Assembly: GCF_000233695.2 (NCBI RefSeq) | Contig: NZ_CM001488.1 | Coordinates: 2,412,279 to 2,476,278 of the forward strand | Direction: 5' to 3' | DNA length: 64,000 nt | Source: Desulfobacter postgatei 2ac9 | GTDB lineage: Bacteria > Desulfobacterota > Desulfobacteria > Desulfobacterales > Desulfobacteraceae | In this document: positions 60,184 through 64,000 of the stretch, one piece after another | Layout of the letters: each line of letters starts with the position of its first letter | How positions within the stretch are numbered: position 1 is the first letter of the stretch | Program-made: the position numbers and the translations under genes | Notes under the pieces: generated by a model | What the model saw: the letters and a program-made list of their open reading frames with translations, nothing else | What the model was told of the DNA's origin: nothing | Databases searched by the model: none

Positions 60184-60723
60184 TTATTGCCCAATTGCCA
60201 GTACCAAATCATCAACCGTTGGGTGATCACCGGCTTTTTTAGATGAAAAAAAATAGCGTACCGCGCCTGACTTATCTACGACAATCGCGCCACCAAGCTG
60301 AAATGTGCTTCCCTGAATCGAACCCTGCCGATGGCCTTGCTTGAATGCCGACGCAGCCTTAAATACAGATCCTATACTCACAAATCCTTTCAAGCCGTTT
60401 GAAAACCCTAAAGCTGAAAAAGCGTTGAGTGAGGGATCGGAAAAAAGTAATCCGCGATATCCTGTTTTTTCCCGGAATTCCGTGAAGTGAACAGGATCAC
60501 CCGACCCGATTACGACAAGATTCGCCTTGTGTTCACTGAATCGCTCTGCGTTATCGGCAAGATCAGCAACCTGCTGACGGCAGAAGACTCATCCAAAATG
60601 TCTGACAAACACTAAGGCCGCTGTTTTTTCATGCCACAGCGTTGATATTTTCACCTGTTCTCTGCGCTCGTTTAGAACAGTCAGTTCACCAAGAACTTCA
60701 GTTGAAACATTTTCATATGCCAT
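60184..60723 (-). CDS. Peroxiredoxin-like (AhpC/TSA_2, PRXL2-type) selenoprotein with Sec45
   Basis: From ATG 60723, preceded by GGGGG, the frame runs 179 codons to TAA at 60186-60184 with one in-frame TGA (60591-60589, codon 45). The context is LVFVRHFG-TGA-VFCRQQ, exactly where peroxiredoxin-like AhpC/TSA_2 proteins have the first Cys of their CxxC (FVRHFGCPFCR). The frame is coherent on both sides: MAYENVSTEVLGELTVLNER before, GYRGLLFSDPSLNAFSALGF and QGSTFQLGGAIVVDKSGAV after. A SECIS-type hairpin follows 17 nt after the TGA. I read it as selenocysteine in a U-x-x-C redox motif. The product should reduce hydroperoxides using thiols. Confidence 0.85.
60562..60578 (-). promoter_or_regulatory. 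Bacterial SECIS element candidate
   Basis: On the minus strand GTCAGCA-GGT-TGCTGAT forms a 7-bp stem (outermost pair G-T) with the loop GGT. The loop begins 18 nt after the in-frame TGA at 60591-60589, within the distance known for bacterial SECIS elements, and has G as the first loop bases, as SelB recognition needs. Confidence 0.68.
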
Positions 60724-60752
60724 TTTTACCCCCTTGAAACCGTAAAATAACA

Positions 60753-60784
60753 AAAGGCCTCAATTTTTGAGAACTGAGGCCTTT
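60753..60784 (-). terminator. Intrinsic terminator of the coiled-coil protein gene
   Basis: AAAGGCCTCA (60753-60762 on the plus strand) and TGAGGCCTTT (60775-60784) form a perfect 10-bp stem. On the minus strand it is followed by T-rich sequence (TTTTGTTATTTT). It ends the gene 60818-61120 and lies just before the selenoprotein gene. Confidence 0.78.
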
Positions 60785-60817: not shown

Positions 60818-61120
60818 TCAACCGCCGACGTTACCACCTTCAAGATCCATCCAGGCCCTGTTAACGCTGCTGCCCACTGTTCCGAACAACTCATCCAGTT
60901 CATTTTTCATCGGAGACCAGTCTGACGGGCATTCATTTTCCAGTTGATCAACGCGAGCCTGAGCAGTCGTTACCTCTTGTTCAAGTTGTCCTATGAGTGG
61001 TAAAATCTTTTCTTTTTGTGCAGAACCATAAGTATCTGCGACCTTTTTCATCGCTTCTAATTTCTTTTTCCAAGCAGTCACTTCAGCCAACATTGCTTGA
61101 CAATAGTCTTTAACGTCCAT
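60818..61120 (-). CDS. Small coiled-coil protein of unknown function
   Basis: A 100-residue protein, start ATG 61120 with AGGAG 7 bases before it. Most of it is predicted helical coiled coil (AWKKKLEAMKKVADTYGSAQ, LEQEVTTAQARVDQLENE), ending with LFGTVGSSVNRAWMDLEGGN. It resembles short stress-related coiled-coil proteins found near membrane or redox genes, but I do not recognise a named family. The C-terminal motif is repeated in a broken second copy at 61300-61425. It has its own strong terminator, so it is monocistronic. Confidence 0.75.
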   Translation of the reverse strand: MDVKDYCQAMLAEVTAWKKKLEAMKKVADTYGSAQKEKILPLIGQLEQEVTTAQARVDQLENECPSDWSPMKNELDELFGTVGSSVNRAWMDLEGGNVGG

Positions 61121-61299
61121 GATTTCTCCTCTCAATTAGATTAATGAAATGTTGCGTTCAGACACATATAACCTTTATAAAGACTAAGAAAATCGTCGTA
61201 CCATAACAAATCAGAACAGGTTTCGAATATCCAGGCAACAACTGACGAAAATCTCATAAAGTTATATGATTATTTACTATACAAGATTCACAGATAATT

Positions 61300-61425
61300 G
61301 CAACCCTATATTTTTAACCGCCGACGTTAACTGTTCAACCCCTACCCAGCCCGTGTCAAAATCGCTCCAGGCCCTCTCAACGATAGTGCCGAATGTTCCG
61401 AATAACGACCATCTCCTGACAGACA
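61300..61425 (-). pseudogene. Broken second copy of the small coiled-coil protein (C-terminal part)
   Basis: The minus strand reads LFGTFGTIVERAWSDFDTGW followed by VGVEQLTSAVKN, which parallels LFGTVGSSVNRAWMDLEGGN at the end of the neighbouring gene. There is no N-terminal coiled-coil part or start codon. The piece lies between aqpZ and the intact gene, and the remaining sequence of 61121-61448 shows no other gene. It is probably a degraded tandem duplicate. Confidence 0.6.
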
Positions 61426-61448
61426 CAGCAAACAATGAACGATGTCAA

Positions 61449-63263: not shown

Positions 63264-64000
63264 GGGGTCTTTCCCAAAGCATAATCTTCGGTTAAAAATT
63301 TAACCAGAATATTATGCGCTCCTACCAAATCTCTGTCATCATAGACCTGTTTTGCAGTTTTATCCACTTTTCAAAACCGATATTTTTTACTTGGCCTGTT
63401 TGTGGATGTGTCTTGCTTGTGTAGGCTTCGCAAACATCAAGCACCGTTTTCCCGAACTTTTTTGCTATCCATTTTAAACGCTGCTTGAATTTAAAATTGT
63501 TAAAGCCCAGCATGGAACGCACGGTTTTGGTTCTGATTTTCCTGTTATTTTTTTCAACCATCTGTTTGATTTCGTAAGTCGGCATCAAAATAACGGAAAA
63601 ATTTTCACATAAAAACCTTGCGGTTTTCCAATGCAGCTCGTCTATTAAGTTTTTAATTTTGGCAGACAGGCGACGGATAGCTTTGGTCAGGGACTTTTTA
63701 TTTCTTGTGTTGGCTTGGCCCTTTTGGAATAGAGTTGATCCAAGTGCAACAATAATCTATACATTCTTGAAAAACCACCTTCGCCGATCTTACCGGAAAT
63801 ATCGGGAGAATAAAACGCGGCAAACGTTCTGACACCGGGGTCTATGGCAACAAGCCCACTGACTTGGTTCTCGCTGCGGGGGATCGTTTGTTTAAACGGC
63901 ACAGATATCCACCACTTTTCGTCTCTCCAGATTAACCTGCTATCCATAGGAAATTCAGGTAAAGATTCATGGAACTTCAATCCTTTCCCAGAGACCTTCG
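63254..64000 (-). pseudogene. TnpB-like RNA-guided nuclease gene, frameshifted, runs off right edge
   Basis: Three frames together give the C-terminal two-thirds of TnpB. Part 1 (63980-63687) has LVAIDPGVRTFAAFYSPD with the first RuvC Asp. Part 2, after a frameshift near 63690, runs RNKKSLTKAIRRLSAKIKNL to VCEAYTSKTHPQTGQVKNIG. Part 3, after a frameshift near 63350, reads YDDRDLVGAHNILVKFL with the last RuvC Asp, and ends in TAG. The zinc-finger CxxC of the family (usually SKTCSxCG) reads SKTHPQTG, so both cysteines are lost. Glu of RuvC-II is not clearly seen. It is inactive as written; the N-terminus is outside the window and no tnpA is visible. Confidence 0.78.

Follow-up and report, generated by a model that had tools for sequence, protein, structure and literature searches.

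A conserved in-frame TGA in a peroxiredoxin-like gene of Desulfobacter postgatei is almost certainly a selenocysteine codon

The split gene and its surroundings

The window analysed here, a stretch of 64,000 nucleotides of Desulfobacter postgatei 2ac9, carries on its minus strand a peroxiredoxin-like gene that runs from an ATG at 60723 to a TAA ending at 60184. The frame encodes 179 residues and contains exactly one internal stop, a TGA at codon 45, which we read as a probable selenocysteine (Sec) codon. The features of the locus are the following.

60184..60723, minus strand: peroxiredoxin-like (AhpC-TSA_2) predicted selenoprotein gene, 179 residues, with TGA as Sec at codon 45 (from translation, PF13911 and homologues)
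60589..60591, minus strand: in-frame TGA, putative Sec45 that opens the UxxC motif (from translation and the TGA found in 84 of the 85 loci scoring at least 200)
60580..60582, minus strand: codon of Cys48, at +3 from Sec, variable across the wider family (from the +3 counts among 87 TGA loci)
60562..60578, minus strand: bacterial SECIS-like hairpin, stem GTCAGCA/TGCTGAT with apical GGT (from pairing that persists in homologues despite base changes)
60724..60738, minus strand: ribosome-site-like stretch 5' of the ATG (direct reading)

A sequence-only reading of this DNA had drawn attention to the TGA within FVRHFG-TGA-VFC, which gives the motif UVFC, and to coding that continues on either side of it. 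Both observations stand, the TGA being the sole internal stop of the minus-strand frame. The gene it described is real, while the strand had been omitted; the plus strand of 60184-60723 contains no open reading frame. The good ribosome site that it saw at the start corresponds to an AAGGGGG 5 nt ahead of the ATG, and its expectation that conventional gene calling would split the gene agrees with the standard list of open reading frames, which cuts it into two pieces (60753-60589 and 60393-60184).

The downstream neighbour is a Polyketide_cyc2 plus short-chain dehydrogenase gene, the upstream one a gene for a 105-residue protein without Pfam match (60818-61135, minus strand). These neighbours were recovered near the Sec gene in 9 and 8, respectively, of the 33 other loci searched, counts that do not establish their absence elsewhere because the flanks covered were about 1.5 kb or less. 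Shared neighbours may reflect local gene order rather than function. A short piece resembling the C-terminal part of the 105-residue protein is found upstream of it (61277-61435, minus strand), and three other loci (L018, L019 and L022) have two matches each to this protein. After the upstream gene sits a terminator-like hairpin (60753-60784, minus strand) with 13 pairs followed by a T-rich tail, which ends about 30 nt before the ATG of the Sec gene; a similar sequence occurs upstream in L018 and L019. It could terminate the upstream gene or act in leader control. Further along the window, short open reading frames at 63322-63980 (minus strand) resemble pieces of a TnpB-like transposon protein.

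Codon 45 among homologues

Homologues were matched in 20 of 86 genomes of the family (E 0.001), 101 of 389 of the order (E 1e-5) and 16 of 395 of the phylum (E 1e-8), these three samples overlapping. As 66 of the 86 family genomes gave no match, including 29 of the 42 with the highest completeness, the gene is dispensable in many lineages. The nearest named relative, a Desulfobacter MAG, shares 89% protein identity. A scan of genome contigs returned one relative, a tblastn search of plasmids (E 1e-5) returned no homologue, and the genome itself yielded no second copy, only a weak match at E 0.4.

Codon 45 was aligned in 108 extracted loci, with 91 TGA, 16 Cys and 1 TAA; without two repeat extractions, the 106 remaining loci have 89 TGA, 16 Cys and a single TAA, in a copy damaged at the site (L061). 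The order search gave 13 further places outside the extracted set, mostly partial or weak, seven with one TGA and six with none. The unselected counts for TGA conservation are those of the 85 loci scoring at least 200 (same order plus phylum, own gene included), of which 84 have TGA, none has Cys and one is the damaged L061 with TAA. The best Cys homologue scores 199; with a C at codon 45 of the query and every TGA counted as C in scoring, the similarity score does not favour TGA over Cys. The placement of the TGA at the first catalytic cysteine, as put forward in the sequence-only reading, is borne out by the 16 more distant homologues and by the nearest solved protein, all of which have Cys there.

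For comparisons among Sec forms, we used a set of 87 genes, own gene included, that comprises the TGA loci minus two very distant ones with TGA at the position (L036 and L132); this set was chosen for having TGA and is therefore not itself evidence of TGA conservation. Also outside it are four repeat extractions (L037, L040, L122, L125), two loci in which codon 45 is unaligned (L032, L038) and L061, whereas L022, which is damaged and keeps the TGA, belongs to the set but was used neither in the tree nor for counting stops. Immediately before Sec stands RHFG in 71 genes, RHYG in 14 and RHLG in 2. At +3, Cys is found in 49 genes, Ala in 34 and Ser in 4, so that a redox pair of Sec and Cys is not a general feature.

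An unrooted maximum-likelihood tree of 104 rows places all 16 Cys homologues on one side of a branch (support 100/97), with no Cys homologue interspersed among the Sec rows. No Cys form was found inside the Sec clade among the extracted loci, and Cys forms may exist elsewhere. The distant TGA locus L036 sits beside the Cys clade, although its place and that of L132 are unsure because of their long branches (2.27 and 3.42). Both are labelled SecN in the tree, as is L019, only because they are outside the hairpin set.

Two related copies are damaged, L022 from the same genus by extra stops and L061 by a stop at the site. Judging from these, some lineages seem to be losing the Sec gene by decay.

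A hairpin in two registers and the selenocysteine machinery

The hairpin with a GGT loop that had been noticed after the TGA is present at +11 to +27 (GTCAGCA-GGT-TGCTGAT, 7 pairs counting the outer G-T) and is conserved across homologues far above chance. The folding energy of the 47 nt of the gene itself is not significant (z -1.29, 20 of 200 shuffles as good), and their minimum free energy fold differs from the proposed hairpin. Conservation was assessed on 86 distinct 48-nt sequences, the 87 minus L019, whose 48 nt are identical to those of L018. At least 4 of 5 pairs form in 60 of the 86 with the loop at +17 to +21 (register A) and in 24 with the loop at +26 to +29 (register B), the groups being assigned by best fit and the registers chosen after inspection of the same sequences; in two (L047 and L050) neither register reaches 4 pairs. 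Counting either register, full 5-pair stems occur in 79 of the 86 (92%; 7 are without), a figure that is fairer, yet not fully blind because of that choice of groups and registers. Synonymous shuffles (n=300, from the pooled codons of the set) reach a full stem in 3.6% on average and 11.6% at most.

The stems vary by paired substitutions: TCAGC-GCTGA occurs 26 times, GCAGC-GCTGC 24 times, TCGGC-GCCGA 4 times and GCGGC-GCCGC once. When the 3' arm is slid by 1-3 bases, the pairs fall from 298 to 28-232 of 300 in register A, a slide of -3 still leaving 232, and from 117 to 21-72 of 120 in register B. The loop of the gene itself reads AGGTT, and 59 of the 60 register-A loops contain GG or GT. On this pairing evidence, the hairpin is found at two places in two subgroups. 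One locus with 4 pairs in both registers, L105, was assigned to register A and lies among register-B rows in the tree.

Could the TGA be a mutated Cys codon, arisen by decay of the gene or by sequencing error and leaving the downstream part untranslated? The two visibly damaged related copies speak for such an origin. Against it, the same TGA is kept in 84 of the 85 loci scoring at least 200, even where identity drops to about 30%, the aligned frame is otherwise open in all but L022, and the conservation of the hairpin exceeds that of synonymous shuffles. The conservation of the TGA across genera refutes a pseudogene or error, to which we leave hardly any probability. A TGA present by chance was likewise rejected from the conservation of both the TGA and the hairpin across homologues. 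The gene carries the marks by which a bacterial selenoprotein is recognised, namely an in-frame TGA at a redox position that is Sec or Cys in homologues, and a hairpin with a G-containing apical loop just 3' of it.

The genome, a single contig of 3.97 Mb rated 100% complete, encodes the full machinery, the best match to each of selA, selB, selC and selD being above its curated cut-off: selA with 598 bits (cut-off 268), selB with 353 (242), selD with 374 (125) and the tRNA-Sec gene with 73 (gathering score 47). The latter lies elsewhere in the genome, and neither Rfam at gathering threshold nor ARAGORN returned anything within the 64-kb window. The sequence-only reading had named two results that would speak against it, a genome lacking selB or selC and homologues with neither Cys nor Sec at the position; neither appeared. 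All 15 family genomes whose Sec homologue aligns over codon 45 have selB, a co-occurrence that discriminates little because most genomes have this gene (above cut-off in 76 of the 86 same-family genomes). The selD gene (L117) itself contains one in-frame TGA and is a second likely selenoprotein of this genome.

A UGA read as another amino acid, such as Trp, through general reassignment or suppression would also keep the frame open. No point in its support was found. Past the aligned region, the frame first ends on TGA in 38 of 86 genes (TAA in 33, TAG in 15), so TGA is not reassigned wholesale; besides, homologues outside the clade have Cys and not Trp, and a full Sec machinery is present. General reassignment was rejected on these three grounds, and we regard this way of decoding as extremely improbable.

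Proposed function and relation to known selenoproteins

The apparent premature stop is almost certainly a Sec codon at the active site of an enzyme. The sequences themselves show where the TGA lies, that it is conserved, that a hairpin is conserved as well and that the Sec machinery is present; from there we infer the actual insertion of Sec, the chemistry and the substrate. SelB with Sec-tRNA(Sec) would bind the hairpin that starts 11 nt 3' of the UGA, and selenocysteine would be inserted at position 45, where PRXL2/AhpC-TSA_2 proteins carry the first (nucleophilic) cysteine. The selenolate would attack or reduce a peroxide or disulfide substrate, and Sec would be recycled by Cys48 where present, otherwise by an outside thiol system. 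As a whole, the explanation by a peroxiredoxin-like oxidoreductase with a predicted thioredoxin fold, with Sec directed to codon 45 by SelB and the hairpin and used in selenolate redox chemistry, seems to us very highly probable on sequence grounds.

The family assignment rests on PF13911 (AhpC-TSA_2), the highest Pfam score with 51.4 bits (cut-off 27), which places the protein in this family; PF00578 (AhpC-TSA) with 42.2 bits (cut-off 26) and PF08534 (Redoxin) with 32.9 bits (cut-off 26.6) are passed as well. The closest solved protein is a prostamide/prostaglandin F synthase (PDB 9us9/9usa; E 1.4e-14, residues 22-175), which we take to be PRXL2B, and the earlier assignment to PRXL2/SelU-like proteins agrees with both results. 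The FGC-VVC of the synthase aligns with FGU-VFC, with Cys in place of Sec in that chain. PRXL2B reduces prostamide H2. Our AlphaFold model (two sequences) had a mean pLDDT of 47, too poor to use; a thioredoxin-like fold of the PRXL2 type is suggested by the sequence match to 9us9.

With Sec inserted all the same, the enzyme might act chiefly as a thiol:disulfide oxidoreductase, or reduce a special substrate as PRXL2B does, rather than serve as a peroxidase. The UxxC motif and the match to prostamide synthase point that way, and a review, in its entry on UxxC Prx-like proteins, calls them thiol:disulfide oxidoreductases (PMC13188914). Ala in 34 and Ser in 4 of the 87 genes at +3 argue against it, the Sec-Cys pair not being general. 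We give this version of the function slightly less than an even chance. On the preferred reading of a Sec-containing peroxiredoxin-like oxidoreductase, this work confirms one more gene that standard calling splits. The 87 TGA genes with their two hairpin registers may help in studying how SECIS elements shift and what makes one peroxiredoxin-like lineage keep Sec; apart from those questions, the gene belongs to ordinary selenoprotein biology.

The protein resembles the NCBIfam model of SelL-related redox proteins (NF040769), which 35 of 35 aligned members match at E up to 0.001, and its own 109.7 bits lie below the curated cut-off of 120, outside that family. Selenoprotein L itself has the motif UxxU with two Sec residues. 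This motif is absent here, position 48 being Cys and the TGA being single, so that the protein does not belong to it; selenoprotein L is entered in an ocean survey as a Prx-like protein of prokaryotes and eukaryotes (PMC2398784). Literature searches on SelL-related/NF040769 proteins, SelL in Deltaproteobacteria, a peroxiredoxin in the Desulfobacter selenoproteome and prostamide/FAM213B gave nothing useful, and the word 'AhpC' was not found in the main texts of PMC8318568, PMC5029168 and PMC12013277.

The selenoprotein is of an already known kind, Sec-containing AhpC-TSA_2 and UxxC Prx-like families being in print, and is not a new one because reviews list such families. Their tables include an AhpC/TSA selenoprotein (pfam13911/cd02970, motif UxxS) credited to the paper on the Olavius algarvensis symbiont (PMC9312934, PMC13188914). 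It shares with our protein the Pfam family and the position of Sec, first in the redox motif, but by its table description, the sole basis of this comparison, it is UxxS instead of UxxC (UVFC). The same reviews list a pfam00578 Prx-like thiol:disulfide oxidoreductase with UxxC or UxxU (PMC9312934, PMC13188914), and the ocean survey tabulates Prx-like 1 (pfam00578) and Prx-like 3 (pfam08534), both UxxC (PMC2398784). These three have UxxC as here and correspond to Pfam cut-offs that our protein passes, although, as far as table descriptions allow, it differs by scoring highest with PF13911; since all three Pfam cut-offs are passed, the gene may already fall under a named family. In contrast, the TxxU of typical Sec peroxiredoxins, as tabulated in the survey (PMC2398784), does not apply here, where Sec comes first and Cys fourth.

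Finally, a eukaryotic parallel is selenoprotein U, which has the same Prx-like2 domain and Sec members. SelU1-3 are introduced in PMC3473315 as Prx-like2 proteins with Sec members in animals, SelU3 being commonly called prostamide synthase, and the SelU reads entered in the ocean metagenome survey are assigned to eukaryotes (PMC2398784). A broad bacterial PRXL2/SelU Sec clade (RHFG-U, with C/A/S at +3), in which Sec is obligatory, the Sec codon is fixed and the SECIS element has shifted by ~9 nt between two subgroups, might even represent the bacterial equivalent of animal SelU, or its origin, a proposal that we advance tentatively and consider rather unlikely. In contrast to eukaryotic SelU, the gene described here carries its hairpin, of bacterial type, within the coding frame and directly behind the TGA.
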